A program made the translations under genes and the position numbers. The notes beneath the pieces were generated by a model. The model saw only the letters and a program-made list of their open reading frames with translations. It was not told where the DNA came from and did not search any database. Shown here one piece after another: positions 9,901 to 52,963 of a stretch of DNA of 64,000 nt (position 1 is its first letter; every line of letters begins with the position of its first letter). The DNA comes from Phorcus lineatus (lineage: Eukaryota > Mollusca > Gastropoda > Trochida > Trochidae). Location of the stretch: NCBI GenBank assembly GCA_921293015.1, contig OV121088.1:22047645-22111644 (forward strand), read 5' to 3'.

Positions 9901-12900
9901 TATGATTTTATAGGATGTCTTCATTGAGTGATTCAACAAAAAGTGAGACTTGTCTACTTTCAGAAAGATTTGGTTGAACTAAGAAACAATTCAATACATG
10001 GACAGAAGATTCTCCACAGTAATCAAGGTAACCTGCATCATCTGTTGATGGTATGAGAGCTTTAGAGTTCAAATATTTGGCTGCTACTATTGTAGGGAGA
10101 GAGCCTTTAATGCCATTGTAGTTTGAGATGAAACTTGTGAACGTGGTTGAAATTAGCAAACTTTGGGTTCTCCAGCACTGAGGTTGTATCAAAGCCTTTC
10201 TGCATGTGGAACAGTTCTCCATAGCAGACTAACTAACTGAGCTTCTTATGGGATTAAAATATGGACATCTTGAAACAAAGCCATTTAGTGGTGTAAGGAT
10301 GTTTTTTTCTATTTAATTGTTGTTCTAGCTATAGCTTCAATCGCAAAAGCTTTGTAATTAACTAAATTAGTACAGTTTTTATGATTTTGTGATATATAGC
10401 CTTTCAGAATATATACTGCTTTTGGTCTGTTAAAAGACTGCTTTAATAAAACCCTTTGTATGTCATTGTTAATGATTACTGGTCTTGATGGATCTTCAAA
10501 TCTGGGGTCAGGGTTACTGCAACTATATAAGAAAGTTCTGCAATAAAAGCAATAGCTGTTGACTATGTACCCTCATTTATGGTCTTCAGTTTGTCTGAAT
10601 AGAGTTCTGCCTTCTTGCCAAGAAGAAAATAAGATGATTGTGATTCTAAATGTTCGGAAATGGATTATTTTTTATATTGTTCATACTTTTCAATATAACT
10701 TCAGGGATGTGATGTAATGTCTTTGTTTATTGTTACTTCATCCAGATGTTACAAACACAAACCTGATGACACTAACACGGCAGATCTCCTCCCTCCAGAA
10801 GTCTCTACAGAAACAACACCAACAAGTTCACACACAGATGGTATGTACTGCTCAAGTCTTTAGGGATAGCTTTTGATATGCTCACATCTCTGTATGAAAT
10901 AAGATCTATCATAGGGTTTAACTGGTAATGACTGTCTTAGGTTGAAACATTTTGAACATTTTTTGTAATTTATTTTATCATATACATTAGAGTCATTATT
11001 TGTTTGTCAAGCTTAATCTGCTTAGTTCTGCTATTATTTTCTAAAAGGACCTGACCCTTGGTAAGATTTACCTGTTGAATATAGAAGCTCACATTAATTT
11101 TGTGTAACAATTATTCACTGTCCTTTCCCTACTCAATGACCTGGAATTATTTTTACAGACTCAGTTAAGAAGATTGATGTTACTTTGTTTTCTTGCACAA
11201 TTGGCGCTCCTTGTTTCCATGGCAACCTGGACCAACCAAGGAGTGAGAGGGAGGCTTCACAACTGGTGAGATTATTGTTAATTACCGGTATGGTGACAAA
11301 TCTCTCATACTAACTTCCTCCCCAAGTCTTACTGAATGACTTATCTTATAAGATTTGTGTGCAACACAGAGGTGAAAGGGGTTTTGGCTTATCAATGTTT
11401 ATTTGAACAAACCAAATGCTCTGTTTAAGCAACACTTATTTAAAAACTAACTTTGATTACAATCAATTAAGACTGGTAGTCAAGAAAGTGCTCTAGCAAA
11501 GATTACAAGAGAAAAAAACACAAGAGATACATCTTTGTTGTTTGGTCGTACCTATGACTTATATGATTTGTCAAACTTTAGAGAAGTGGAAGTAATTGCA
11601 CAATATAAGATAAGGTCGTACATCATGTAATGTACATCTAAAAATCTTGTAAGTAAAACCAAAATTAAAATTTCATGCGTAGCATGTGTGCATGTATGCA
11701 CATAAATACCTGTTTACTTCTCACATTTCATTTCTGTCCATAATATTGTATGCATGAAAGCTGATTAAGGAGGATTTATCATGAGCTTCATTCACCAGTT
11801 TTGGGAATCCCTTGCGCAACTATGCAACAACATTTGTCAATATTTTTCAATTGGCTGGAAACTACTGCAGGTCTACCAGCATTTCTCCATTTCGTTTTCA
11901 CCTTTAAATTTTGTCAAGATCAATGATAAATAGAAATTCAATCATTGACTCTTATCATATGATACAATGTTTAAGCATATTGAATATAATCTTACTACAA
12001 ATCAATAATGATTGATTTGAGTATCATATGATCTAAAACATAGGGCTGTTAATATCAACTGAATTATATACGAAACATAACTAGGACGAAACATCATTTA
12101 ATTTGATCTTAACACTCAAAATGGCAACTCTGAAAGTAACAGGTTTCTTTTGAATAAGTGGTAATAAACTAATTGACCAACAGTCTGCTAATGTATTATA
12201 CCAGGTACAGGTATGTAATGGTATCCATCTCAGGACCTACAGTGTCACTGCTCACTACATGGAGAGATGCATCTCAGTATTGCCTGCACAGGTCTGTATT
12301 TCTCCAGTCTTGTTTCTCACATTTCTGACAGAACGTGAATTATATCTTTTTCGAACAGATTTTTTCAACAATTTCTTCAATTAATGATACCAACATCAGA
12401 CAATGAATATGGTAGTAGTGTAACAATAGTAATCATGTTTGCATTGTCTTCAATATAAGATATTAGTGCATTGGTGCAAAACATTTAAACATTTAAATTT
12501 AACTTAAAGGGCCACAGAGTATGTTGTTGGAGTCAAATACGCCAAACATCAATGATATCATTTCATTGAGAAGTAGTGGTTGTTTCAGAAAATTAGATTC
12601 CTAATGCTTATCAGTTCAGTATAGTGACAATAAACAGGTGAATGTCATGATTTTGTGATCGGAAACAGGACAGTGACGGGCGTCAATGATTCAATCATTA
12701 TTTCAGAAATTTATTTACAGCAGATACAAAGACAAACATTGATTTATAGTGATAAGTAGGTTATTTAACTAATATACACGTTAAATGGACACATAATTTT
12801 GAATTCTTAACATTTATCGGGACGTTTTTCGATTATCAATGAAAACGAGAAAAGATCATAATTTTGGCATTTTATGGATAAGGATACAAGTTAATGGAGT

Positions 12901-13577
12901 AAATTTTACCTTAACTCAGGTCATAAGGTATTTTGCCAATTAAAAATCATGAAACATACACTGTGTCACTTTAACTTGGTGTTTTTATTCTGTTTTAGAA
13001 AGATTAACAGTGGTTAGGTAAACAGATAAAATACAATACTTCTGATACTTTATCTGCAGTTCACAGTCTCTCTGATTTTATGACTTCCATTAATGTTATG
13101 TTTACGACAGGTTGGTATTTAAGAATTAACATCATTTTCTCATGTAATACCTAATTCGCCATTTATAAACTGTAGAACTATGGTATCGTGATAATAATCG
13201 TCTCGCAGGTTCCTTAGCAATACTTCCATGATATAACATCTCGCCTTATAAAACTGATAGCGGGATATGTTGTCTCAGCACTAAGACCATGATGATACAC
13301 AGGTCTACAATATAGCTGTTTATCCCTCATCCAAAGAGGCAAAAAGTTGTCTCACCCACTATAGACAATATCCAGCAAGGGATATCTTTGTTATGACCAA
13401 ATAATAACATTATTGAAATACAATGAATGCATTGCCAATGTAAATTTTTTTTATGTAAATCTATATTAATGTCTTTGAATGGTCTGTTTTGATATGCAGG
13501 TTATGATTCTGTATGTTCTGGTTTCAAGGTTCACATCAAGATTCACCCAGATGATCTACAGCTGGCCTGGGAGGTAG
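6924..13577 (+). CDS. uncharacterised coiled-coil protein with C-terminal membrane segment (9 coding exons)
   Basis: Exons read from splice sites: 6924-7010, 8022-8211, 8905-9014, 9208-9498, 9964-10027, 10746-10840, 11159-11265, 12205-12291, 13529-13577. All phases join and the total is 1080 nt, 359 residues. The ATG is preceded by an in-frame TAA. The N-terminal half is Ser/Lys-rich with no fold I recognise. Residues about 130-225 are strongly charged (EEGQLETREELSEKRKTRR). A heptad-rich coiled coil (LMTLTRQISSLQKSLQKQ) is followed directly by a hydrophobic segment (LRRLMLLCFLAQLALLVSMA) and a short basic tail ending WPGR. This suggests a membrane-anchored oligomer with a large soluble N-terminus. 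A second hydrophobic stretch (VLGLLVLVWLI) ends exon 4. The 64-nt exon 5 was found because exons 4 and 6 do not join in phase without it. I do not recognise the family. Two MITEs sit in introns 1 and 8. Confidence 0.72.
7056..7218 (+). mobile_element. TTAA MITE, family B, internally deleted copy (163 bp)
   Basis: Begins TTAAAGTGACACAGAGTATG and ends CTCTGTGCCCCTTTAA, with TTAA at both ends. Compared with full copies of about 470 bp it keeps both terminal inverted repeats but has lost most of the interior. It lies in intron 1 of the 6924-13577 gene. Confidence 0.8.
12504..12974 (-). mobile_element. TTAA MITE, family B, full length (471 bp)
   Basis: The left end TTAAAGGGCCACAGAGTATG and right end ATACACTGTGTCACTTTAA form terminal inverted repeats with TTAA at both edges. 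The orientation is reversed relative to the 17078 and 54926 copies. The interior holds the complement of the shared core (cggttttcgatcaca-like motif). It lies in intron 8 of the 6924-13577 gene. The TTAA edges match piggyBac-type targeting; this is inference, as no transposase is present. Confidence 0.82.
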
Positions 13578-14623: not shown

Positions 14624-15111
14624 TTAAAGAGCCACTCCATGATTTTCATAACATATTATTTACCATTGATACGAACCTATATGTCATATGTGGTGATATA
14701 AAATCAAATAATTTTAACTTTTCATGTCCATAAGACATATATATGACAAATACTGGTTTTCCATGAAAATCTAAAAACATCCTTATAAATGCACAGAGGT
14801 GTAGATATCACGTCCAATATACATTGATACTAGTTATATAACCTAAGAAACACTATCAACTCCTAACTGCCCTCCTGGCTGTTTTAGATAAGTCTCCAAA
14901 ATTACGTTTGACTACTAGTATTTGATGCGCGCCACTGTTTGGTTTTCGATCATAATTGCGACATTCTACCTTCATATTGTCACTGTTAAAAAAAAAACCA
15001 ATAACCTTTAAAATGTGTCTTTTTGGTAACAGTTGATACTTTGCGATCAAATGACACCATTGATTGAGTTTGGCATATGTGACTCCAACAACTCACGGAG
15101 TGGCTCTTTAA
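14624..15111 (+). mobile_element. TTAA MITE, family A, copy 1 (488 bp)
   Basis: Starts TTAAAGAGCCACTCC and ends GGAGTGGCTCTTTAA, so the terminal inverted repeats are about 15 bp with TTAA at both edges. The interior matches the copies at 18984 and 52466 almost throughout. It has no coding capacity. A TTAA target is typical of piggyBac-type elements. Confidence 0.88.
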
Positions 15112-17077
15112 CGTCATATGTTGCATTTGTGTCCTTGTCTTCAACAAGAAGATATTATGGAAGCGGAGGAACAAGGAACATTACAAGTTTGCACCAGATG
15201 GATCACATCACAGGAATGCACGTCAAGTTTCAAATGTCTATCAATGACCAGTCAAAACTGAATGGAGAGGTTAAATTTTTTTAGTGACAAACAGATAGGT
15301 GAAAAATATTATACTATGTACTCAAATGATTCAGGTAGAAAAATGATTCAATGAATATGAAATTGAAGCATGTAACTGCTTTTGAGTAGGTCAGACTATT
15401 CTTTAAAACTTCAACTAAATACTATTTACAGTGGTGACTGTGGTCCTTGTGTCAACTGCTGGAAGAAAGGAGTGATAACCTGTAGCAATTGAATCATAAC
15501 TTACTGAGAGTGACTGGGTTGACATGTAAATACTGATAAGATATTTACAAGATTTTCTTGAGTCCTGAAATAAAAGGTCATGACCCTGTTCGGTCTCTAT
15601 ATAACAGGTCACTCATGTAACCTCAGATTATTGTTCTAAATGGCTGAAACATTGCACAGGGTGCGAACAACAACTTTCTCTTCTCTGAGATTAAACTTAA
15701 ACAAGTGTTAAGGTCAACCTTAGGTTTGCCTTTTGAAAAGAGCTTTTGAACATAATCAAAAGTGTTGATTTTGGAGGCAAGAACAAATGCATATAGTGGC
15801 TTTGATCCAATTTTTGTGTGTCGCACCATTGCTCCCAAAATTATCATTCAAGAGATGAAAAATACGTCTACGCAAAAACCCAATGTTTTTCCTTCAAATG
15901 AATCACTGCAGGCAAAGAGGAAGTGAGGTGTGTCCGTGTGTTCCTCTAAGACAGCAGAGGTAACACCCTCATTGATCCAGGATTAATGTCCTCATAGTGG
16001 ACGCGTACACTCTGGATTATCGAGCATGAAGAGGAAGCAAATGTATCTTCGCAACTTTAGAGGTAGTCTGAGTAATAGCTCGGAGCCAACAAGGCGCTCT
16101 TGCGAATAATTGTTAGTGCCAACACAAAGTCCAAAAGTGAGGATTTTCAGCATCACAAATGTTCTAGCGGTTCAAAACGCCTAAAAAATGTTTCACAGTT
16201 TCAATAAGGAAATAGTCGAGAGAATGGGTCCTCTTTGTTTCGTATATCAAGATAATTCAATTCAATGTACAAGCTGTAAATTTATGAGCAGGATAATATG
16301 GTAAAAGGTAACTAATTTTTGTTGCACTGTTACCACTCGCCTAATGAGTCTGGTAATGCCTTCTAAATAAACATAAACTTCCTTTATACGATTCGTAATG
16401 TATTGATCCGTTGCCGTGTTGTCAATTCGACTATACTGATAATAAGTTTTAGCCGTACATATAAACGCATTTATTCCGTGTCAATTCACTTTGGTACTGT
16501 ATATCTGTCTAATGATACAAACTGACTAACGGCATAAACCAGTGATAAAAACAATTATAACCAGTTGCCTACTGGTTTGTTAAATTGTAGAAATCGGTAA
16601 TGGTGTCTATATTGCTCCCATAAGTGTGGTTGAGTTGTTACCTTCAGACACTGACCACTTGGCCGCCTACTGACCCCTGGACAATAAGTCTGGTGTGACG
16701 TACACAGTGACAGTAGCAGCAGTTGGATATTATACAGTAATCTTGGGATTATAGATTAAGTTATAATTGAATCTATCGAACGGCATAATGAATACCAGCG
16801 CTCGGAATTTAATACCTCTCTTGGCTTTCTGAATAGGTCATGCTTGAATGAAAATTATTGATGTCTTGGAATGTATTTAAATGAAGTTTATAGCCACTGG
16901 TCTGCAACATACGAAATGACAATTTGTACGTTATAGAATAACAATTTGAAATCGGTCAACGACTATATTCATAGTAAACCAATGGTAGTTTTCATATCAT
17001 TGATTGATACCTTTATGTTCCCGTCAACTCATGTGAAGTGTACTGAGCTAAAACTGAAAGAATTGAACATGTGACAC
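15112..17077. other. intergenic stretch without a supportable gene
   Basis: Minus-strand open frames at 15415-15612 and 15623-15847 lie close together but are in different frames and match no family I know. They could be remnants of a decayed coding repeat. The rest is AT-rich and featureless. Confidence 0.4.
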
Positions 17078-17548
17078 TTAAAAAGACCCAAAGTATGTTT
17101 TATGATTTTGTATGTAGCTTGAATAAGGGCCAAAATAGCATATGTCCTGAGCTAAGTTCAAATAACCCGTTTTAACTTGCATCTTTATCTCTGAAATGTC
17201 AAAATTATCACATTTTCTTGTTTACAATGACAAACGAAAAAGAGCCATATAAATGTTAGGAAATCAAAATATTTCGTCCAATATACATGTATATTAGTTA
17301 CATGATTATTAGTTGAAGGAACACTGCCAATCTATATTTGGTTTGTGTCTGCCAAAATTACGTTTGAGTCATTGGCGCGCGCCATTGTCGGGTTTTCGAT
17401 CACACATCGCGACTTTACCTATTTATTGTCTGAACTATCAACCATCAGGATTCTGATTTTCTGAAACAACCACTACATCTCGATAAAATAACAGCATTTA
17501 TGAAGTTTGACATATTTGACTCAAACAACATACTCTGTGGCCCTTTAA
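17078..17548 (+). mobile_element. TTAA MITE, family B, full length (471 bp)
   Basis: Begins TTAAAAAGACCCAAAGTATG (a diverged 5' end) and ends ACATACTCTGTGGCCCTTTAA. The core at about 17355-17400 (AATTACGTTTGAGTCATTGG, then a CGCGCGCCATTG tract) is shared with other family B copies and, more weakly, with family A. Confidence 0.85.
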
Positions 17549-18221
17549 GAGATTATCCAGTGTTGTCATTATGGAGATTATTCATAGGGTATGGTATGTT
17601 TGATTGGTGTTATCCACATGGACATTGATCTTTAGGCATTAGCATTATGATTGTATTTCTGACATTAAAGGTAAACTTGCAACAGAAATGTCCCAAGGAT
17701 GATAAAAATAGAAAATGAATTGATAACATTCGATTTTTTGCTAACCTTAAAACAAATATAAAGAATGGGATACAAAAAAACTCTTCTTTTTTCGAAAAAA
17801 CCTTTGTAAAATATTTCATTTTCAAAAATCTGTTATTGTGACACCAATGTTCTCGTAGAAGAGATGGATGTCGACACTTAATGACGTAGCGCAATAAACC
17901 GAGGATACAAGACATGAAAGAAACCCATTATTAGATGGTACCATAATGAACACGGAGTGATTGCCGGAACACGTCTCCTCAGGGACTTAACAAAATGTTA
18001 AATGTTAAATGTCTGTGCACCGATCGTTTCGTGTAGCATTAGTTAGGAGTGCTCTGAATATACCTGGAATCCCCAATGAGTTTATGATTTGCCGGATTTG
18101 GACAGAAATAAGAAAAAATTCGGTGTCACCATATAGGCCTGTGAAACTGAATTGAATGTAAGCATTTCTGCTAAATGATTTCTGATAAAATATTTTGCTT
18201 AATTAATACCGAAAAGACGCT
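17549..18221. other. spacer between MITEs, nothing recognised
   Basis: AT-rich sequence. A minus-strand open frame (17610-17915) is Phe/Leu-rich with no motif and no ATG context of note; it is not called. Confidence 0.45.
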
Positions 18222-18642
18222 TAGTTCTTAGTAAAGTTCAAATCGCCTCCCTAAACCTTCATCTTTATCTCTGAAATGACAAAATCACGTTATTTTCCGA
18301 TTTCAATGAAAATTTTGCACTCGACCGTAAAAATGTTTAAAAGTAAAACGTCTGGGCCCAATTTACATGTATACTAGTTGAATGACCTACGTAACACTTA
18401 CAACCCATATTGGTATTTTTATCTGCTGTGAATAAGTTTCTAAAATTACGTTTGAGTTATTGGCGCGCCATTGTCCGGTTTTCGATCACAAATTACTACT
18501 GAAACCTGCCTATTGTCGCTATACTTAACTGATATGTATCGGGATGCTGATATTCTTAAACCACCACTACTCCTCAATGAAATAACGCCATTTATAAAGT
18601 TTGACATATTTGACTCCAACAACATACTCTGTGCCCCTTTAA
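18222..18642 (+). mobile_element. TTAA MITE, family B, 5'-truncated copy
   Basis: Homology to other family B copies starts near AGTTCTTAGTAAAGTTCAAA and runs to ACATACTCTGTGCCCCTTTAA. The first 120 bases or so, including the 5' terminal repeat, are missing or too diverged to see. Confidence 0.75.
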
Positions 18643-18983: not shown

Positions 18984-19459
18984 TTAAAGAGCCACTCCGT
19001 GAATTTCATAACATATTATTTACATTTGATACGAACCTAAATGTCATATGTGGTGATATAAAATCAAAACATCTTATCTTTTCATGTCCAAAAGACATAT
19101 ATATGATAAATACTGGTTTTCCATGAAAATCTAAAAACAGCCTTATAAATGCACAGAGGTGTAGATATCACGTCCAGTATACATTGATGCTAGTTATATA
19201 ACCTAACAAACACTATCAACTCCTAACTGCCCTCCTGGCTGTTTAGATAAGTCTCCAAAATTACGTTTGACTATTTGACGCGCGCCACTGTCCAGTTTTC
19301 GATCATAATTGCGACGTTCTACCTTCATATTGTCACTGTACAAAACAAATTAGCTTTGAAATGTGTCTTTTTGGTAACAGTCGATACTTCGCGACCAAAT
19401 GACACCATTGATTGAGTTTGGCATATATGACTACAACAACTCACGAAGTTGCTCTTTAA
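18984..19459 (+). mobile_element. TTAA MITE, family A, copy 2 (476 bp)
   Basis: Starts TTAAAGAGCCACTCCGTGAA and ends CACGAAGTTGCTCTTTAA, with TTAA at both edges. It is nearly collinear with the copy at 14624. It lies only about 340 bases from the truncated family B copy, so this stretch is a MITE cluster. Confidence 0.88.
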
Positions 19460-19499
19460 GAATGCATTATTTGTTGACAATGCTCTAAGTTGTAAGCCT

Positions 19500-28147: not shown

Positions 28148-28225
28148 ATCCTGCTACACCAGCGTATTTGTATCCGTGACAGTGTATAAAGCTACGCGGA
28201 TACAAATACGCTGGTGTAGCAGGAT
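28148..28225. repeat. perfect 29-bp inverted repeat with 20-base loop
   Basis: The arm at 28148-28176 (starting ATCCTGCTACACC) is the exact reverse complement of 28197-28225. The loop is 28177-28196. A related 23-base sequence with three mismatches to the right arm occurs once at 41849-41871, so this is part of a dispersed sequence that has folded back on itself here. Confidence 0.85.
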
Positions 28226-28384: not shown

Positions 28385-28825
28385 CTAAAACGTTGAAGGT
28401 GTTACCCTTTTATGATAATAATATTTTATTGCTTTGAGTGCTTTATCCGGAATTTGATGGTTGGACTTAAACCGGATAACTTTTAAGGATAATTTATTGA
28501 CTGTGTTGATTCTAAAATTGTATGTCATTACATCTTTGAAAGAACAAACTCTTAAAAACATCAATACTACCCCAATCTTGAGCAATCCATACGTTTGAAA
28601 AGCCGGTCAGAAATAAAAGCATTCGTACATGTGAGACCTTACAATCTTTTCCCTGTTCATCAAACTGTTTCATCATTTCATCAGATGCCCTTGGCTATCG
28701 AGACCTTTCCATACGAATTATTCTACACCAATAACTTATGCAACGGCTGTAGTAATGAACACACAAATAACTTCTACCTGTATCACCAAGGATTGCATTA
28801 CTTGATATTCGTTTGGAAATTGCAA
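28385..28825 (-). pseudogene. non-LTR retrotransposon ORF2, C-terminal part (downstream of the insertion)
   Basis: Read on the minus strand from 28825, the frame gives SKRISSNAILGDTGR, then RCISYWCRIIRMERSR, then FSNVWIAQDWGSIDVF. This matches the usual order behind the reverse transcriptase in LINE ORF2 proteins: a (R/K)TSNxxVLGDxGR-type block, a YW block and a GFxxVWxxQ block. After a stop and a frame change it continues with FKSNHQIPDKALKAIKYYYHKR, another typical tail block. Stops at the SR|P position and further down show it is dead. It continues directly from the 32910-34334 segment once the 4.1-kb insertion is removed. Confidence 0.75.
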
Positions 28826-28849
28826 CCGTGAATGACGCATATAGCTGCA

Positions 28850-28889
28850 TGACGTCACAGATCAAAGTTTACATAAAAGCATGACGTCA
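28850..28889. promoter_or_regulatory. pair of CRE-like TGACGTCA palindromes (left arm)
   Basis: Perfect TGACGTCA octamers occur at 28850-28857 and 28882-28889, 32 bases apart, about 750 bases upstream of the zinc-finger ATG. The octamer is the consensus for CREB/ATF-type bZIP factors. Whether it is used is not shown by the sequence. The same pair appears in mirror image in the right arm. Confidence 0.4.
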
Positions 28890-29630
28890 CAGGCTAAGTT
28901 TAGTATATGACGTGGTGATCTATTATGAATAATATTCATACGGATATTACAACAGGAGATGATATAATTGTGTGATATAAAATAATAAAGATTAATGTGA
29001 ATTGAAGGAAACCCATTAATTGAATTAAATCTAGCCATCAACATTAAACTGAAACAATACGGAATAATAAATAGAGCTACATTATATAAAAGTTATGGAG
29101 ATGTATATCACAGGTAAAAGGAATCTAAAGTTGGCTGACATGTTAATCAAGACAATTTACAATGGAACAATGGAAGGTGTGACTTGGAAAAGCTGACAAT
29201 GCCTCTTTGTGATACCTTAATATTTTTATTGTCAATTAGTCACTGGTAAATGTATTTTAACGCTTGTATTATTATTTTGAAAGTGTCAAAATCTTATAAC
29301 ACAAACCATCCTTCCATAGTAAGAGAATAAATTATAAAGAGTTAATTTTTACTATTCATTTAGTAAACCATTTATTTTGATTTTCCGTGTTCCCACTTAA
29401 AGATACTACCGCCCCTTTAGATTTAAGTTTGAAAGTATTTAAAACAAAAGAAAGATCACTCTATCAGTTTGTTATTTGCAACTACGTGTTAAGTCACTTA
29501 GCATGTGTGTTTTGTGAACCGACGGTCCTCTCCCTTGACCCGAAATGACCTGTGAATACACACAAGCTTTGCTGGACGTGTCAAACAACAGCTGTTAACA
29601 TCAAGTTTTCCGCTCTCGGAAATTATTCAA

Positions 29631-30812
29631 ATGGATTCACCATCAAAACCGTAAGTACAGACTTAAATCAATACAACAGAAACTATACATAAATAACTTA
29701 TTACGATTGCTTTTGCAAAAGGAACTATAGATTTAAAGTTTATTTCATTTATTTTTTAAAGTTCTCTATCTAATTGCAGTATATTCAAATGTCCGGAATG
29801 CGAGAGAACGTATTCATCCCAAACAAATCTCAATCAACATAAGAGATCAGCTCACGAGGGGAGACGATTTCTCTGTGATAAGTGTGATAAGTCCTTCACT
29901 AGAATGCATAATATGAAAAGACACAAATGCGCCACAGCTCAATATCATTGTAATGTAAGTATGATTAAGATTAAAACATTATAGCAATATTTACTAATCT
30001 ATATTTATATGATGCCTTCATGTTATTTAACAAACGCAATAGATAAGAAACAATACACCTAATGACATATGGTAAACCATGTATTATTATTTTGTGAAAA
30101 CAATGGTGTCTGTTGTGAAAGAACATTTCATATCTACACATACATGTATAGGTAAAATTATTTTATCTGAATTGTATTAATGAATGAATACTTCTCATGG
30201 TGTTAATAGAAATGTAGCGGGTTTAGCTATATATGCAATGTGCCATTAAGAAAGATTGAGTCACTCAGTGATTTTGACATCTTTATAAAGTGAATGTCTT
30301 TTCAAAGTGTGTTTGATGATTTCATAGCATACTCGAAAGGTGTAACTTAATACTGTTATCATAAATAAATCTCAACAAGATCTTATATCGAGATAATGTC
30401 ATGTTATTACAGTATATATATTTAAGCCTACATTAATTAGAAAGGCTGCTATGAACTAAATTCCCTATACTCAAACTATTAAAATATATTATTGATTAAT
30501 TCCGTGTTAGATTGTAACATTGCTTTCTGTGTATAGGATTGCTCTGAAGTATTCTCCACTCCACGTGAATTAACAGTGCACAACCGTCGATTCCATGAAA
30601 CCAGTAAGTTAACACTGAACCAGGCGGCGGCGGCGGCGGCGGCGGCGACGGCGGCGGTTGCGGCGATGGCTTTGATGCATAAGAATTCACTGAACCAGGC
30701 GGCGGCGGCGGCGGCGGCGGCGACGGCGGCGGTTGCGGCGATGGCTATGATGCATAAGAATTCACTGAACCAGGCGGCGGCGGCGGCGGCGGCGAGGGTG
30801 CCATTGAAGTAA
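29631..30812 (+). CDS. C2H2 zinc-finger protein with polyalanine tail, left-arm copy
   Basis: Exons 29631-29650, 29780-29954 and 30537-30812 join in phase (GTAAGT and GTAAGT donors; CAG and TAG acceptors), giving 156 residues from MDSPSKPIFKCPEC. Finger 1 is C-x2-C-x12-H-x4-H (CPECERTYSS...). Finger 2 has C-x2-C-x12-H but no normal second His (HKC follows), so it is atypical. Finger 3 is again C-x2-C-x12-H-x4-H and ends RRFH. The tail consists of repeated units of LNQ, polyalanine and AMALMHKNS, and ends RVPLK. Such proteins can bind DNA, and the alanine tracts could act in repression or aggregation; both are inference. A perfect GTAAGT at 30604 offers an alternative end that would remove the alanine tail. 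Confidence 0.7.
30627..30795 (+). repeat. GCG-repeat (polyalanine) tandem array, left copy
   Basis: GCG-codon tracts recur within a unit of about 78 bases (GCG run, ACGGCGGCGGTTGCGGCGATG, MHKNS codons, CTGAACCAG). There are two full units and one short final unit here, against shorter middle and first units in the right arm. This is the main difference between the two arms. Confidence 0.85.
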
Positions 30813-30813
30813 C

Positions 30814-30942
30814 CCGGATTGTGGGAAGTCCTTTTCAAGAAAAGATGTTATGTATCGACATAGGAGGAATATACACTCGCACACAGCTACGCCGCCACCA
30901 CCGCCGCCGCCACCACCGCCACCGCCGCCTCCTCCCATCTCA
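30814..30942. other. central spacer of the foldback element
   Basis: 129 unique bases between the arms. The left part is ordinary sequence; the right part is a run of CCG/CCA triplets (about 30891-30934). It does not pair with itself, so the two arms do not meet at a perfect hairpin tip. Confidence 0.8.
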
Positions 30943-30943
30943 G

Positions 30944-32104
30944 TTACTTCAATGGCACCCTCGCCGCCGCCGCCGCCGCCTGGTTCAGTGACTTCTTATG
31001 CATCAAAGCCATCGCCGTCACCGCCGCCGCCGCCGCCTGGTTCAGTGAATTCTTATGCATCAAAGCCATCGCCGCAACCGCCGCCGTCGCCGCCGCCGCC
31101 GCCGCCGCCGCCTGGTTCAGTGTTAACTTACTGGTTTCATGGAATCGACGGTTGTGCACTGTTAATTCACGTGGAGTGGAGAATACTTCAGAGCAATCCT
31201 ATACACAGAAAGCAATGTTACAATCTAACACGGAATTAATTAATAATATATTTTAATAGTTTGAGTATAGGGAATTTAGTTCATAGCAGCCTTTCTAATT
31301 AATGTAGGCTTAAATATATATACTGTAATAACATGACATTATCTCGATATAAGATCTTGTTGAGATTTATTTATGATAACAGTATTAAGTTACACCTTTC
31401 GAGTATGCTATGAAATCATCAAACACACTTTGAAAAGACATTCACTTTATAAAGATGTCAAAATCACTGAGTGACTCAATCTTTCTTAATGGCACATTGC
31501 ATATATAGCTAAACCCGCTACATTTCTATTAACACCATGAGAAGTATTCATTCATTAATACAATTCAGATAAAATAATTTTACCTATACATGTATGTGTA
31601 GATATGAAATGTTCTTTCACAACAGACACCATTGTTTTCACAAAATAATAATACATGGTTTACCATATGTCATTAGGTGTATTGTTTCTTATCTATTGCG
31701 TTTGTTAAATAACATGAAGGCATCATATAAATATAGATTAGTAAATATTGCTATAATGTTTTAATCTTAATCATACTTACATTACAATGATATTGAGCTG
31801 TGGCGCATTTGTGTCTTTTCATATTATGCATTCTAGTGAAGGACTTATCACACTTATCACAGAGAAATCGTCTCCCCTCGTGAGCTGATCTCTTATGTTG
31901 ATTGAGATTTGTTTGGGATGAATACGTTCTCTCGCATTCCGGACATTTGAATATACTGCAATTAGATAGAGAACTTTATAAAATAAATGAAATAAACTTT
32001 AAATCTATAGTTCCTTTTGCAAAAGCAATCGTAATAAGTTATTTATGTATAGTTTCTGTTGTATTGATTTAAGTCTGTACTTACGGTTTTGATGGTGAAT
32101 CCAT
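30944..32104 (-). CDS. C2H2 zinc-finger protein with polyalanine tail, right-arm copy
   Basis: Mirror copy of the left-arm gene: exons 32104-32085, 31955-31781 and 31198-30944, 149 residues. The ATG, splice sites, all three finger motifs and the final RVPLK with stop are kept. The alanine blocks are shorter, and one block reads AVTAMALMHKKS. The two genes are convergent, their stops lying about 130 bases apart, so a transcript running past the spacer would contain its own antisense and fold into a long double-stranded RNA. On the opposite strand the same region reads as polyproline (30850-31239), which I take as a shadow. Confidence 0.7.
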
Positions 32105-32845
32105 TTGAATAATTTCCGAGAGCGGAAAACTTGATGTTAACAGCTGTTGTTTGACACGTCCAGCAAAGCTTGTGTGTATTCACAGGTCATTTCGGGTCAA
32201 GGGAGAGGACCGTCGGTTCACAAAACACACATGCTAAGTGACTTAACACGTAGTTGCAAATAACAAACTGATAGAGTGATCTTTCTTTTGTTTTAAATAC
32301 TTTCAAACTTAAATCTAAAGGGGCGGTAGTATCTTTAAGTGGGAACACGGAAAATCAAAATAAATGGTTTACTAAATGAATAGTAAAAATTAACTCTTTA
32401 TAATTTATTCTCTTACTATGGAAGGATGGTTTGTGTTATAAGATTTTGACACTTTCAAAATAATAATACAAGCGTTAAAATACATTTACCAGTGACTAAT
32501 TGACAATAAAAATATTAAGGTATCACAAAGAGGCATTGTCAGCTTTTCCAAGTCACACCTTCCATTGTTCCATTGTAAATTGTCTTGATTAACATGTCAG
32601 CCAACTTTAGATTCCTTTTACCTGTGATATACATCTCCATAACTTTTATATAATGTAGCTCTATTTATTATTCCGTATTGTTTCAGTTTAATGTTGATGG
32701 CTAGATTTAATTCAATTAATGGGTTTCCTTCAATTCACATTAATCTTTATTATTTTATATCACACAATTATATCATCTCCTGTTGTAATATCCGTATGAA
32801 TATTATTCATAATAGATCACCACGTCATATACTAAACTTAGCCTG

Positions 32846-32885
32846 TGACGTCATGCTTTTATGTAAACTTTGATCTGTGACGTCA
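32846..32885. promoter_or_regulatory. pair of CRE-like TGACGTCA palindromes (right arm)
   Basis: Perfect TGACGTCA at 32846-32853 and 32878-32885, mirror images of the left-arm pair, about 740-780 bases upstream of the minus-strand zinc-finger ATG at 32104. Confidence 0.4.
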
Positions 32886-32909
32886 TGCAGCTATATGCGT
32901 CATTCACGG

Positions 32910-34334
32910 TTGCAACTGTTGCAAATATGGTTGCAAAAAAGTTGGATCAGATGATCATCAGTATACTACTGCCGCACAAAAGAATAGGAACAATTTTAGA
33001 ATCAAATATTTCTATGATAGTATGAAAGGGTAGCGACTGGAATGATTTCACTAGTCTATTAACAGGAAACATCGCCTTCCTAGCATGAATAGTTAAAGTT
33101 TCACAAGCTCTAGACCAAATTAATCTTGAAGAAAATACGATTCCAAATACTTATAATACGAAAGACACTTAACTTCTGTACCAGCATATGTCCACCGTTC
33201 TGTGCTTTTCAAAAATCCACCTTTCCAAAACACTACTATATTTGACTTATCCAAATTTACCTCAAACCCCCATTGCATGCAAACATGCTTAGGTTTCCTC
33301 AAATATTTTTGACACAATGATTGTAAAACAAAAATGTTATCAATTGTAGAGTAAGTGGTCCTGAAGCCAGCTTGCGACTCGTGAATTATACCGTTTAATT
33401 CAACCCACTTCCTAATTCTATCTTCCACAATCGAAGTGAAAACTTTGCCTAAGATATTTAAAAGTGATATGCCACGATAGTTATTAGGATCCGAAGAGTC
33501 AACTTTTTTAAATAAAGTAACAATCATACTGTCTGGGAAAACACCACTATCAAGAACTGCGTTAAACAATAATTGAAGATATGGAACAATGATTAATGCC
33601 TTTTTAACAAACTCAGGAGGAATACCGTCTACTCCGGCAGATTTGCCATTCTTAAGTGAACTTAATGCTTTCTTTATCTCAAATTCAGAAATTGATTCAG
33701 ACAACAAAAATGAGTTATCACAACTAGTACAACTCGAAGCATCGTGAGTGCTAATAAAATTAACAATAGTTTCATCAAACAAAGAATTTCTATCCATAGT
33801 GTCAAGGTTTAACAATTTCTTAAAATAATCAAACCAAACATCAAGTATAACATGCGATTCCTTACCCTTAACACTCAACAAAGACTTCAGTTTTCGCCAA
33901 AACTGTTTACAATCCTTTTCAGCAGCAGCTGATTTGATATCATCAACCAAACATTCTCTATACAACTGTTGTTTAGAAAAACATAATTTACGAAATTCCT
34001 TTCTGCTAGTCAAATAAGCTTTTAAATTGTTGAATGATTTACACCTGCGAAATAAATTCAATAATTCATATTTCTTATGTTTTACTGTCACACACTCATG
34101 ATCAAACCAAACAGGTTGATTACGATGTTTACCTTTATCACCGTGTGATACAACTTTAAACTGATCACCAGCGAAGTACAAAATATTAACTAATACATCT
34201 ACAGCAAGATTAACATCAGTATGAACTATGCCTAAGAAATCATCAATCATATCTCTTACTGATGATGACTCGAGTCGTTCCAGGTACAATTGATCCTCCG
34301 CATCCTTCCACCTAAAGTTAATGAGAGGAGTAGC
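32910..34334 (-). pseudogene. non-LTR retrotransposon ORF2 fragment: linker and partial reverse transcriptase
   Basis: A long open frame (34289-33120, extended upstream by ATPLINFRWKDAED to a TAG near 34335) starts in the linker after the endonuclease and enters the reverse transcriptase. Visible RT blocks are LKNGKSAGVDGIPPEF, then NNYRGISLLNILGKVF, then HESQAGFRTTYSTIDNIFVL. It then jumps at about 33291-33300 straight to WGFEVNLDKSNIVVF, so the palm with the catalytic Asp and the YxDD box is deleted. After the stop at 33120 a second frame continues (IWSRACETLTIHARKAMF, then IFDSKIVPILLCGS), showing a frameshift. The endonuclease is missing (5' truncated). Family type is CR1/Jockey/RTE-like; I cannot choose between them. 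Confidence 0.85.
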
Positions 34335-34816
34335 ACACTACTACCTATATGATAGATCCTAAAAAGCATGTAATTGTTGTACAAAACCTGTTTCCGATTA
34401 TATACTCCGAGGACATCTGTTGCATGTTCATCACACAAATCAGCTTCGGGGCTCCACATCCAATTTTGCAGCCAATAGTTGACCTTTCATTTGAGGTTGT
34501 GTCACGTCCCCTTCTCTCAACTTTCATTGTATATTGTATTTCTCACAAGTTTTAAACCACATACAACGGTTCGCCTCGGTGATTTGCAGAACACTCTCAG
34601 TGCCCGCTAGTTACGACATAAAGCACATTGGTACAATTAATTTTTTCGCAAATGGTATAGGCCGGTTTATTAAGATGGGGGAAATTGATATTTTTAGAGG
34701 GTGCTTCTATATATGACTGATTTTATATATGCGATGGTATAATTGTTACGACATGCATTATGTATTATTTTGTGTTCCATTCACCTTAGTCACACTGATG
34801 ACATAACCGTCATTAC
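34335..34816. other. spacer, nothing recognised
   Basis: Overlapping short open frames on both strands (34256-34555) have no recognised motif. This may be the LINE's original flank. Confidence 0.4.
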
Positions 34817-34959
34817 ATGACATCTCCTTCGTTACCATGACATCTCCTTCGTTACCATGATATCTCCTTTATTACCACGACATCTCCTTCGTTACCATGA
34901 TATCTCCTTCGTTACCATGATATCTCCTTTATTACCATGATATCTCCTTCATTACCATG
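34817..34959. repeat. 20-bp tandem array, about seven copies
   Basis: Direct repeats of ATCTCCTTCGTTACCATGAC with a few substitutions (TTCG to TTTA or TTCA, ATGAC to ATGAT or ACGAC). Similar variants alternate along the array, which suggests higher-order copying of two or three units at a time. Confidence 0.9.
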
Positions 34960-40801: not shown

Positions 40802-43800
40802 TGGTTTCAATATGTTCCTCCCAAACGACCCTCAAGGCATCTATTAACATGACGGGGATCACTGGGGAGGTATCCTTCAACCAACAACAACCGGGTAGCA
40901 CCATCAACGTGAACTTTGACCTCTCAGGGTTATCGGGTACTGTGCAGGTCGACCTCCGCCAATCATGGGTTGATTACACGGTGCAGTATAAGTGTGCCGG
41001 TGACGTCATAGGCACCAGGTTGGCATTAAGTTTTTCATTTAATATAGTGATGTTCTCATATTTTCTAAACAGAAGTGTCTACTTCTGTTTTCCTGTGAAT
41101 TTCGCACCAAATGTACGCATAGTATTTGGCTAAAAGCTGTTATTTGACTGTCTAAAAGCAGATGGGTTTGCCGTTTACATATTTAACTGTCACCTTTCTC
41201 TTAGTCCAGCCAGCTTGTTTTTTGGAATTTTAAGATGATTTCCTCAACTTGAGCAGATACATTGCTGAAACTATTTTCTGTGGTTTTCTTAAATGTTTTC
41301 CTAATTACTGTGATTTTCTTGTTCATCATCAACTGCTTTATTTCGTACGTAGGCCATAGGCTAAAATACATATATACAATGATACATATTATGCAATAAA
41401 ATATATACATAATGTTGCTTAATCCAAGTATTAAATCGTACATAGTATCTTTATTGTGTTTCTGTCCGTGATCTTTTTTTTATACTCAATTTTTCAAATT
41501 CAAGGTAAAAAATCTTCACGCTGCAGATTAAGAAGCACATACTACAATTGATTTCCGTCATTTATGTCATTCTGTTGTAATAAACTGCCTCCATTTCGGG
41601 TATGGAAGAGAAAGAAAATGTTCAAGCTCGTACAACACCCCTATACCTAAGCAAATGCCTGTACGTTAGTAATTCATTGATATGTATATGTTTCAACCAA
41701 TGAAATTATGCAAGGCACCTAAAGCGAAATATCTTTGAACTTAACGTTCTCGTAATCCGGATGCTGTCGAAGCAAAGTGATTAATTGACAGGTTAATAAT
41801 AACTTTACGTAGTAAGTATAATAGATATAAGAGTTCAAAGGAACTCCACGGATACATATACGCTGATGTTGGGCTGACATCACTCAGACTGGTGAGTTCT
41901 GGTAATGGTCGCCATTTTCTAAGTCTTTGGATACAGCTTTTTCCATATACTGACTGACCAAGTGCCTTAATTCGATATACTAAATATCCTTTATCGATTC
42001 CCTTCTGCTCAGTTTTTGATAATCCCAGAAGTTCTATTACATTTCTGTTATCAAAAGACCTTTGGTAGATTACGCATTTCATCAAGACCTCTTCTATATG
42101 TTTGTTTATCTATTTGTGATATTCTTTGGTCTTGTCACTTCGTATATAGTCACATGTAAGAACTATGACATGAACGTTAATCAAATTCTTTTAATTATAT
42201 TTCATTATTGATTAATACATTATAATTCATTCAGCCAAATACAAATTGCTTAATAACTACCAATACAGCAAAGATAAACCGGCGTGTAAAGTTTACAAGG
42301 TTATACGCATAGACATTTCACTAACACATTAACCTGACAACTGTGTTGTACTAATACGCAGCAAAACCATGAACATTTAGCGTCTATATAAGGATTTTAT
42401 AAGAGTAAAGCGGTAATTACAGGCATGACTGCATCACATCAACTGATGATTTACATGAGTTAATACGAGTGGTACTTTGTGCAAGTTCGTCCTTGGATTA
42501 CTTCGTTAGAAAAGGGGACAATGAACAAATCTGAATAAATATGTTTAATGTTCAGTAAAACTTAATTTCTACGACATAACCACTAACTTCTACAACTTTT
42601 CAGCTACAATTCCAATACTGCATGGACGATAAGCACCGGAAGTGAAGTGAAGTCCATTCCCTCCTCCGTTGTTAATGACGTCAAACAGCTGATGGGTGAG
42701 TGTAGGGCGTTGTTGAGAAGTTGAAGTTAACCGTCGTCTTTAACATGAATCAATAAGCTCCAAAACAGTATTTTTAATACTTAACACTCAACATGAAAAA
42801 TTCGCATTATTTTAGGGATTGGTGGCCAAGAATTGTTTTTAAGCCTGGATCAAGACAATCTCATTGAAATGAAATTTAACATTGCCGCACTGCGTTACAC
42901 ATATTATAGATCTCACAAGACACCTTTACTCAAGCCTACTGGTTCACCTTTGACTCCAATTTGACCTCTTGATCCCATTGGCTTGATACAGATAAGTTCA
43001 AGCAATTACAATGCACTTCTTTCGACGGCCATAAATTAAAGTAGATGTAATTTAATTAATTGAAGTTGAAAAACTCTTATAACCTTTCCATTATTCAAAG
43101 AAAAAGTCATTGCATATGTCTTTCAATTCAATAAAAACTGGACATAATCGGTTATGGCATCTCAGTCTTTGACGGAACGAGTGTCAATCTCATTACCGTA
43201 TTCACATCGAATATGACTGGTATTTAAGTCTGTTTTGGTGTCTTTCTCTTATCAACATGTTTATGGTTATTTATTGTCGCGAATTTAATGGGATTCCAAC
43301 GAATATTTAAAACTAAAAGACGAAACGTTTATAGCATTTTGATTGATCCTGTCTTCTAAAGTATTTGGTTGAGGTGTGCAGAGATTGGTTTCGAACGATA
43401 ACCAAATACTTTAGGATTTGACTGTTTTGTCCAATAATCAGAGCAAGGGTAAATTGAAAGCAATGAAAAATAGTTAAAAATGGATTCATTCGGATATCTA
43501 GACTGCTCGACAATATCATTCTCTCCAAACAGAGATAGCTCCGTCATAAATTGATATACAACCTCTGTCTTAATACGAACGTTGCTTGGTCTTGAGTTAT
43601 TTCCGTAAGCTTTAAAAAAGCTAAACTTTATTCGAATAAGCACCTTGCACTTTGAGTCTTTACAGAACACAAACGCTTAATTTTGCAACCGCATCATCGC
43701 ATAGGCCTGTGTGACAACAAATATGTTATTCATGCATTCGGTGTTTTCATTGGCTGAAATATTGCCAGGTAGTTTAAGTTACTATTTTGCGCCGGTAGGG

Positions 43801-46800
43801 AAAACTGCCGGAAGCCCGAGAAACCTTCGTTTGAAGACAGAGGTCGTATAGGAATTAATAACGGAGCTACACCTGTGGGGAGACAATGGATATTATGGAA
43901 ACAGTCCGAAATGTTCGTTCTCCGATTGCTGAAGAGCCTAGACATACTAGATACAGAATTCGTCCGCACCCTAGAATACGAGGCGAACTCGCTTATTGGC
44001 TGATATAAATTATGTCACAGCCAAACCTGACGGCTCGTTTAAGGGGGCCTGGATAGGTCTAAACGCGTAACATAGGAGAGCATTTTAAATTTCATTTCAA
44101 TGAGATTGGGATCAAGAGATATTGTAAAAGATGAACAGAACTTCTGCAATAAAGCACATTATATATGGGTGCATCATATGCATTCTTGCTTAGTAATCAT
44201 CCGTAAACATATTCTTAAATGCTTGACTATTTTACGCTTACATTTTTCTCACTAACAGGTCGGAGTGTGTTGATTACCATGGGCAGTAATAAAGCCTGTG
44301 GAACACTCATGCTGGAATCCTCGACTTACTTCACAGCGATGGTTCGTCTACAAAATGGCGGGATTAATGGTGAGGTCTGGTTTCGGCAAGCTCAAGGAGA
44401 GAGAACAGAAATACTCACGGATATGTTCGATCCTTTCCAAACAACAACTATGTCGTCTTATAAATGGAAGCTTTTCAATGGAACAGGCATGGACTGCAAG
44501 ACAATGTCTTCCCTCTTCAATCCAACTTCCACAGACGATACGTCATGCTCAGTCATGAATAAGGAGGGCTGCCCAATTGGAAACTTGGATGGTAAACTAG
44601 GAAATATTGAGGTGGGCAGGACACAAGGATCAACCAAAACGTTTTATCACGATACCGTCCTACCCCTTAATGGCGCCAATAGCATCGTAGGAACACATCT
44701 TGCAGTCCTTGACAGTTCGAACTCTATTATTTCTTGTGGACATATTGTTCAAGTGAACAACAAAATAGCAATTGCTCAAATAAATAAAGATGGTGTCATA
44801 GGCATAGTCAAATTTGATCAAAGGTCACCATTTGACGTGACCAACATATACATCAGCCTTATCAAATTAGACAAGAAGGCTGGTGGGCTCCACATTCATG
44901 AGTTTCCAGTCCCGAGTCAGATCGAGGCTGATGATCAGCTGTGTAGTTCCGACAGTGTGGGGGGTCACTGGAACCCATACAAACAAGACTTCCCTGGGTC
45001 TGGTTCTACGGCAGACATGTACGAAGTGGGAGACATCAGTGGTAGATACGATATGCTAGAAAATCTTGATGAGTACTACACAACTCTCTCGGATATCAAC
45101 ATACCAATGTTCGGACCAAATAGCATCGTTGGCAGGTCTGTAGTCATTCACAAGAGTCCATCAGGGAATAGATGGATTTGTGCAAACATAGAGGTAATTG
45201 GTGCCATGGCAACAGCTTCTGCAACATTTAGGTCGAAAGTTATTGGGAATGTTATATTCAGTCAGGCCTTGGATGACCCGACATCGGACACATGGGTCTT
45301 CGGAGAATTGAATTATGGCGATGGCGTGTCCTCTAACAGCACAGACCACATGTGGATGATTCACGAGAACCAGGTCAGCAACACAGCAACCAATGACTAC
45401 TGCTCGAATCCAGGTCCGATGTTCAACCCTTTCAGGGCCAAGAAAGACGGTGACTACTCATCTCAATGCAAAGCATCAAACCCTCTTCGTTGTCAGGTGG
45501 GAGATGGTACGAGGATGACAGGTCCTCTGGCGATACGGTACAACACAAAGTCTAAGAAGTTCTTCTATACTGTCAGGAACATGCCTTTAACTGGCCCAGG
45601 CAGTATCATAGGGAAGTCGTTATTTATTCATGCCGCAAATATGGGAATGAGCGTCCTTGATTGTGCCAATATATATCATCTGAGGATGAGGGAAGCTATT
45701 GTAGATTCCTGGAGCAATGATGTAAAAGGATATTTCAAGTTCTCTCAGCAGTATAACATTATTTCTTCTCCAACAAAAGTGTCTATTAATGTTACCGATA
45801 TGAACAGCATAGCCGGAAACTACCACGTCCATCTGTTTCCGGTTCCCCCTAATAGTGACAATCCTTGTTCCGGTAACAGCGTAGCCGGCCATTACAATCC
45901 CTTCAACGTGGTGGCGGCGAGTAGTCCTTCACCTAAAAATGGAACTTTTGATAAATACGAATCCGGCGACCTCAGTGGAAAGAACGGCCAATTCGCAGAC
46001 ATGAACAGCTACGACGGGGGCTACACGGACAATATGCTCAGTCTGTTCGGAGTCAGAAGTGTCGTTGGTCGCTCAGTAGTAATTCACAAGATGGCGGACG
46101 GATCTCGTTGGTCGTGCGGGACTATACGAGAAGACGAGATTATGACCGGAGGAACGATGCATCGGGCGATAGCAGAATTTGACACACCAGACGTAAAAGG
46201 GCATGTAGTGATGGTAGGTTTGTAGAAAGTTAAATCGAACATTTTATTATACTTCTCCTTAAAACCATGGTCAAATAAAACGGAAGAATAAATCACCATA
46301 AAAGACTTCGTGAAAATACAGGATTATTTCCAAAACGTTAAGATTAGCCACCATTAAAACTACCTGAAATAAGAGAATGTTGAATCTCTGTCATTGTTAC
46401 AATTGTTTGAAAACGGACAGCAAATGATAGATTTTGGATTAGAACTTACAAAGATAGATATATCGAATCCATTTTGTTGAAACCATTTTCTCATCCGTTG
46501 AAAATACGCTTAACCGCCTTAGTTATTAACCCATCACCTTTTATTATGTGCCTAGACGCAATACATCTACCCAGATGGCTCGATGAGTGACACAACAGTG
46601 TACATATACATCAACCACACCGACAGCTCCACGGAGGTGAGTGACGGCGGCTTTAATTTCACCGTGTTGCACGTGCATCATGATTTACTTGCTCATTTCC
46701 GCTGGCACGAATAAGTAAAAATATCTGCGTTTTTGCTGATTAATGTAACGGTTGACTTTGTGGCTGTTGTATATCTCTGATTGGCTGAAATTAAAAATAT

Positions 46801-52200: not shown

Positions 52201-52465
52201 CATACCAACAAACTCATGTTTTTAAATCCCATTCAGATTTACTGACTTAACTGATCATAGTTGACGATGTACTCTGATTTGTACATAGTATTCAAAAATA
52301 CAAAATCCAATGCCTCTCCTGACCGGGGAAGTCAATGAGCAGGAGATTCTTGAAATACCGTCACGTCATCAGCATTTACTAATTGTAGATAGTTTCCTAA
52401 TTAGTTTCTGAAATAAATCAAACGCATATATACAAAGATGGTGTCAGTTGTAGACTAATTGTACG

Positions 52466-52963
52466 TTAAAGAGCCACTCCGTGAGTTGTTGGAGTCATAT
52501 ATGCCAAACTTAATCAATGGTGTAATTTGATTGCGAAGTATCGACTGTAACCAAAAAGACACATTTGAAAGCTTATTGGTGTTTTACAGTGACAATATGA
52601 AGGTAAATCGTCGCAATTATGATAAAAAACCGGACAGTGGCGCGCGTCAAATAGCCAACTGTAATTTTGGGAACTCATCTAAAACAGCCAGCAGGGCAGT
52701 TAGGAGTTAATAGTTATATATAATAGTATATAGTATTTGTTAAGTTATATAACTAGTATCCATGTATATTGGACGTGATATCTACACCTCTGTGCATTTA
52801 TAAGGCTGGTTTTAGATTTTCATGGAAAACCAGTATTTGTCATATATATGTCTTTGGGACATGAAAAGTTAAGATGTTTTGATTTTATATAACCACAAAT
52901 GACATTTAGGTTCGTATCAAAGGTAAAATAATATGTTATGAAAATCACGGAGTGGCTCTTTAA
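52466..52963 (-). mobile_element. TTAA MITE, family A, copy 3 (498 bp)
   Basis: Inverse orientation relative to the copies at 14624 and 18984: TTAAAGAGCCACTCCGTGAG at the left and CACGGAGTGGCTCTTTAA at the right. The terminal repeats and TTAA edges are intact. Small tandem expansions near 52715 (TATATAATAGTATATAG) explain the greater length. Confidence 0.88.

Follow-up and report, generated by a model that had tools for sequence, protein, structure and literature searches.

A palindrome of Phorcus lineatus as a probable rearranged Polinton/Maverick copy with one end duplicated in inverted orientation

We analyzed a 64,000-nucleotide stretch of the genome of the gastropod Phorcus lineatus, hereafter the window, which occupies positions 22047645-22111644 of contig 13 in the assembly searched (957,807,699 bases, 74 contigs) and carries a palindrome of about 4.1 kb. 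Judging from its sequence homologies, this palindrome is most likely a defective, rearranged copy of a Polinton/Maverick in which one end appears twice, as inverted copies, on either side of a packaging-ATPase gene fragment. Its homologies, its junctions, a true right end and a missing left end can be read directly; the rest of the Polinton is gone, and the element retains none of the polymerase, ATPase and integrase genes in full. The element family itself is already known. What appears to be new here is a Polinton reduced to the mirror image of its polymerase end, for which we found no counterpart in literature titles and the beginnings of abstracts, a source that gives weak evidence of absence. 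Most likely the element has no function, since it retains no complete enzyme gene.

Palindrome structure and gene fragments

The palindrome contains an ungapped inverted repeat of 1,908 nt (28820-30727 versus 31008-32915), which far exceeds the match expected by chance, and gapped BLAST alignment extends the pairing to 28820-30813 versus 32915-30943. Counted inward from 28826 and 32909, the arms measure 1,988 and 1,967 bases around a 129-base spacer (30814-30942), exactly as given in a preliminary description of this DNA. That description also called the arms nearly identical and gene-bearing. The former is true of the outer 1,895 bases, where the BLAST alignment contains 2 mismatches (29756/31979 and 30494/31241), while further differences sit in a proline-rich (GCC)n array, which repeats in tandem a unit of 75 bp in the left arm and one of 57 bp in the right. 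The latter is true of exons, of which each arm has three, and not of a complete gene. Along the palindrome the order of parts is A B' C B A', where A is the arm proper, B the proline-rich array and C the spacer (Table 1). The left array repeats the right one in reverse orientation, the inner B'/C/B portion is asymmetric, and the sequence flanking the palindrome is not mirrored.

The three exons of each arm comprise 87 codons and encode three C2H2 fingers, the same in both arms; the two introns between them, 129 and 582 bp long, have GT-AG borders, and the phases match. Arm bases 402-654 and 1427-1793 match, at 98% identity, two adjoining pieces of a relative elsewhere in the genome, L040, which carries a 1,512-codon frame with a DNA_pol_B_2 domain (PF03175, E 1e-9). 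The second piece holds exon 3 and stops 411 bases before this polymerase frame; past exon 3, L040 runs on into intron sequence, and the window switches at that point to proline-rich DNA. By these matches the arm gene is probably the polymerase gene, putatively polB, of which exons 1-3 are retained in the window element and no polymerase domain. Queries that were chimeras, combining the arm exons with an ATPase piece, found no encoded relative in viral contigs, one weak zinc-finger match (31% identity) in a protein database and no candidate in a second protein database search.

On the + strand the center encodes a truncated finger, with a proline-rich frame following it. Window positions 30814-30897 equal residues 8-35 of the aligned ATPase frame of another relative, L032, at 28 of 28 residues, beginning at codon 7 when the presumed ATG is counted as codon 1. 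At 30813 the junction replaces this ATG together with the first cysteine of the N-terminal finger, whereas the seven relatives compared have native sequence upstream of the ATPase start. Only the N-terminal part of the ATPase gene is carried by the window. A single gene made of exons 1-3 and the central finger was considered and rejected, since the relatives' frames place this finger in the ATPase gene. With all parts of the window element accounted for, there is no room in it for an rve integrase.

Table 1. Window positions of the palindrome's parts and of a neighboring repeat family (L numbers are loci in the host genome).
Feature	Positions	Strand	Remarks
Left arm, segment A	28820..30612	+	Inner Polinton terminal repeat (to ~29370, judged from L039) and region of putative polB exons 1-3; outermost ~55 bp of terminal repeat missing
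Four subterminal TGACG motifs	28833..28912	+	Starts 28833, 28850, 28882, 28908; mirrored in right arm
Exon 1 (MDSPSKP...), putative polB	29631..29650	+	Donor GTAAGTACA
Exon 2, putative polB, left-arm copy	29780..29954	+	Two C2H2 fingers
Exon 3, putative polB	30537..30603	+	Third C2H2 finger; donor GTAAGTTAAC; 21/22 residues equal L040, upstream of family-B polymerase open reading frame
B', inverted copy of proline-rich part of ATPase gene	30613..30813	-	
C (spacer), ATPase gene fragment	30814..30942	+	From codon 7, presumed ATG being codon 1
B, proline-rich part of ATPase gene	30943..31122	+	Sense
Right arm, segment A' (segment A inverted)	31123..32915	-	Exons 31132-31198, 31781-31955, 32085-32104
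Outer end of right terminal repeat	32916..32970	-	Right side only, ending ...ATACTACT
GCCGCA, expected place of 6-bp target duplication	32971..32976	.	By eye; no copy abutting left arm
~470-bp repeat copies	12504-12974, 14624-15114, 17077-17549, 18175-18642, 18984-19461, 52463-52963, 54925-55394		

Ends of the element and its relatives

The left arm has at least 87 matches in the host genome, including the window's own two (40 of 89 candidates were scored), and its outer ~340 bases recur at many genomic places; the mobile-element origin proposed in the preliminary description was right. Among the matches listed there are eight inverted pairs of these outer ~340 bp, six of them spaced 5.2-5.3 kb apart, and the longest arm match outside the window is 369 bp. 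None of the scored candidates is a second copy of the whole palindrome, nor do these include dispersed copies of a long-armed unit with duplications at its arm ends, and the notion of the foldback unit as a new kind of transposon is not supported.

Sequence of these relatives was fetched as 18 stretches from the arm-match list and then 6 more. All 11 of the fetched two-ended copies are bounded by perfect 6-bp duplications, ten identified by script (AAGAGA, ATCACG, ATAATT, AGCACC, TGCGTG, AATGTG, AACGTG, TAGATT, TATAAC, AACACG) and one, for the outer pair of ends of L034, by eye (GTTGTA). Their ends are AGTAG-type, reading AGTAGT or, in the L034 outer pair, AGTAGA; the inner AGTAGTAT pairs of L034 have mirrored rather than repeated flanks. 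Besides the polymerase frame of L040, the relatives encode an rve integrase (L038, E 3.6e-8) together with a polymerase fragment 92% identical to that of L040, and a P-loop ATPase (L032) with weak matches to Pox_A32 (E 0.0048) and Adeno_IVa2 (E 0.0062), a frame present at least in part in 16 of the 22 loci L031-L052. The five L038 open reading frames scanned, the only ones covered, gave no capsid match. Excerpts of a study of vertebrate Mavericks describe (AGT)2//(ACT)2 ends and 6-bp duplications, with ppolb, ATPase and PZ forming one module (PMC8097293). By homology the relatives of the window element are Polintons/Mavericks, a described family, where the preliminary description had known of none. 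KolobokP was dropped as a candidate because the part of its description available gives TTAA or 3-5 bp duplications.

The relatives are informative in their own right. Ten of them (L031-L037, L039, L042 and L043) are non-autonomous Polintons of ~5.2-6.5 kb with long terminal repeats, which in L032 are 1,193 bp long and 99.2% identical, and all ten have an ATPase-like frame whose N-terminus is proline-rich. Three AGTAG-type ends are nested in one terminal repeat of L034 (234, 375, 541 and their mirror), as stacked or exchanged termini, and L037 is listed likewise. L039 (931-6133) has an L040-type outer end on an L032-type interior, a structure suggesting that Polinton subfamilies have swapped terminal repeats. 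L038, an 8.6-kb Polinton copy, contains at 3379-6087 a 902-codon frame with DUF1280 that is probably a nested second element.

Where the window element ends was judged from an alignment of 20 relatives' end rows with the window's two. The preliminary description had placed the terminus at CCGTGAATGACGC, which has no exact match in viral contigs or prokaryote genomes, and had read the adjoining TTGCAA as a 6-bp target duplication. The right arm in fact runs outward through TTGCAACTGTTGCAAATATGG to an ACTACT ending at 32970, its last eight bases (32963-32970) agreeing with the right half of the AGTAGT...ACTACT signature. All 20 relatives' end rows likewise continue past the TTGCAA position in related sequence, 6 of 20 with exact TTGCAACAGTTGCAACCGTGAATGACGC and the remainder showing single-base changes or a short gap; AGTAGTAT is reached in 17 of the 20, some 45-110 bases further out. 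Being a palindromic 6-mer (palindromes make up 43 of the arm's 1,870 internal six-mers), TTGCAA cannot by itself separate a target duplication from an arm end; since both the relatives and the window's right flank carry the terminal repeat past it, it is internal to that repeat, and the right arm ends at 32970. The relatives' own duplications also differ in sequence, leaving TTGCAA-like duplications unsupported. Two extra copies at 32919 and 32931 (chance ~1e-4), entertained as excision footprints or target preference, were ruled out as such because both are part of the terminal repeat. The case is a warning: where a palindromic 6-mer borders a palindrome, it should not be taken for a target duplication.

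Several observations weigh against our interpretation. At the window element no left end and no left duplication were found: the left flank has no outward terminal-repeat sequence, about 55 bp of the outer left end being missing, and GCCGCA follows the right end with no copy abutting the left arm. Three of the 20 end rows (L039, L041, L042) lack AGTAGTAT at the expected place, the outer end of L039 and L042 being located further out, and at the window's right end ~22 bases beside the terminal eight are unlike those of the fetched copies. The ATPase Pfam matches of L032 fall under the curated gathering cut-off. Furthermore, arm bases 655-1426, which hold exons 1-2, are missing from L040, so that the case for assigning these two exons to polB is built on the splice sites and phase in the window and on a third finger encoded partly by exon 2 and partly by exon 3. 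One other genomic match covers the exon 1-2 region (contig 19, 78%; L044/L049), and the 10 kb of it that were read contain no polymerase. Finally, the arm gene has introns, whereas excerpts on intact vertebrate Mavericks describe their open reading frames as intronless (PMC8097293).

Formation of the palindrome and competing explanations

In the left half of the palindrome the polymerase exons and the ATPase piece are co-directional, as in vertebrate Mavericks, which argues for a native left half and a copied right arm. It is this copied arm that bears the intact terminus and borders unique DNA. Microhomology at the junctions amounts to at most ~1 bp by eye. We propose that a break or replication failure within the (GCC)n-rich ATPase region would have left an open end, and that the lost side would then have been rebuilt from the polymerase end in inverted orientation. 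By the simplest route, the right terminal repeat would pair with the left and prime inward synthesis as far as polB intron 3, at which point the new strand would be linked to the ATPase end. The proline-rich piece could have reached the left arm as B' in a second round of copying between the arms; arm-to-arm conversion, or mere youth, would keep the arms ~99.9% alike outside the proline-rich array; and the outer ~55 bp on the left would have been lost.

The prevailing view is that Polintons replicate by protein priming as linear DNA, perhaps as virions. The palindrome could also have arisen as a copy-back (snap-back) defective genome, in which the growing strand of a linear episome switches to its own complement and the resulting linear palindrome is later integrated. 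We hold this mechanism to be a tentative possibility, and regard it as somewhat more doubtful still that the locus is a chromosomal fossil of such a genome, formed extrachromosomally and integrated as a symmetric molecule. The order and strand of polB and ATPase, which agree with the excerpted account of vertebrate Mavericks and mark the right arm as the copied one, are consistent with it, as is the intact terminus of that arm beside unique DNA, expected of copying to the end of a linear molecule; by analogy, adenovirus forms symmetric defective genomes. The native right terminal repeat of an integrated element would nevertheless account equally well for the intact right end, and copy-back leaves a left end that has neither terminus nor duplication. 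Literature listings on adenovirus and Polintons yielded no precedent. The B' piece requires a second copying step on either route. We lean toward the chromosomal route about twice as strongly as toward episomal copy-back, a judgement rather than a measurement. A one-end mirror-image Polinton is the expected remnant of abortive terminal-repeat repair or of copy-back replication; were the latter true, the fossil would be direct genomic evidence of protein-primed episomal replication, and possibly interference, in a Polinton, for which virions are so far unobserved (PMC8097293).

It is tempting to speculate that the palindrome is retained because it silences Polintons. If its two inward-facing promoters still work, they would yield a long hairpin RNA matching both messages, as proposed for Mu killer against MuDR in maize, with which the locus shares its architecture according to excerpts of PMC3440606, and the central 781 nt have a predicted fold of -676.7 kcal/mol. 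We consider a dedicated silencing locus improbable: a very young palindrome would persist without selection, and the accessible part of a mollusc survey reports no evidence of a dedicated pathway of endogenous small interfering RNAs (PMC12479628).

An assembly artefact from a missed hairpin adaptor might be suspected of any near-perfect palindrome known from an assembly alone. It is very improbable here, as a fold-back artefact would mirror the flanks too, and as the arms stop at different points of the terminal repeat, differ by two mismatches and by their arrays, and enclose the asymmetric B'/C/B portion. In P elements, the KP protein acts as a repressor by occupying element DNA, and by analogy the frame open in both arms might encode a truncated protein of 156 or 149 aa (with intron 3 retained) that combines three fingers with an alanine-rich tail and occupies Polinton DNA; this would require intron retention and a tail that is the antisense of the ATPase proline-rich code, an accident of inversion, and we find it a shade less credible again. 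Least plausible of all is a mobile foldback family with CCGTGAATGACGC ends, for despite the long inverted arms and a TTGCAA on both sides, that motif is internal to the terminal repeat, the relatives' duplications vary and the scored candidates contain no second unit.

Surrounding sequence and comparison with known systems

Elsewhere in the window, a reverse transcriptase fragment (RVT_1; 33120-34289, - strand), probably of a long interspersed element, adjoins the palindrome, and a 29-bp perfect inverted repeat with a 20-nt loop lies 0.6 kb to its left (28148-28225), with a partial copy at 41849. A tandem repeat of eight copies of a 20-bp unit occupies 34798-34959. No Rfam family reaches its gathering score anywhere in the window. 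The 1.25-kb element at 42847-44117, with ~24-bp inverted ends and the 9-bp direct repeat GGATCAAGA, is presumably Mutator-like by the length of its duplication. It is followed by a 668-aa single-exon frame (44219-46225, + strand) with four Cu/Zn superoxide dismutase stretches. A dispersed repeat family of ~470 bp, ~64-91% identical, is represented seven times in the window, with five copies clustered inside 7 kb; fragments of it also lie next to L031 and L043.

Long terminal repeats, AGTAG-type ends, 6-bp duplications, a family-B polymerase, an integrase and an ATPase all tie the relatives to Polintons/Mavericks. The window copy departs from these: its three putative polymerase exons occur twice together with a fragment of the ATPase gene, only one of its ends is a true one, the left duplication is missing and, against the intact vertebrate elements excerpted in PMC8097293, its arm gene has introns.

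The nearest architectural likeness is to Mu killer, a derivative of MuDR described in excerpts of PMC3440606 as having one terminal inverted repeat (TIR) twice, an inverted duplication of the 5' part of an element gene, and an internal deletion. Mu killer belongs to another element class, and silencing has been demonstrated for it, although its hairpin RNA is itself a proposal (PMC3440606), whereas the likeness of the window element is one of architecture. In the 2RT copies of Galileo, according to the part of PMC3573991 consulted, sequence adjacent to one TIR is duplicated in inverted orientation beside the other, lengthening the arms of non-autonomous copies, and such extended TIRs are explained as the recruitment of TIR-adjacent sequence. 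Galileo differs in being a P-superfamily transposon with many extended-TIR copies, where we find one.

Adenovirus, a protein-primed linear DNA virus, produces symmetric defective genomes that are palindromes of one genome end. The window palindrome has the same form and differs in being known as a chromosomal sequence. Separating repair from copy-back at the palindrome locus would provide a test of adenovirus-like defective genomes in Polintons.

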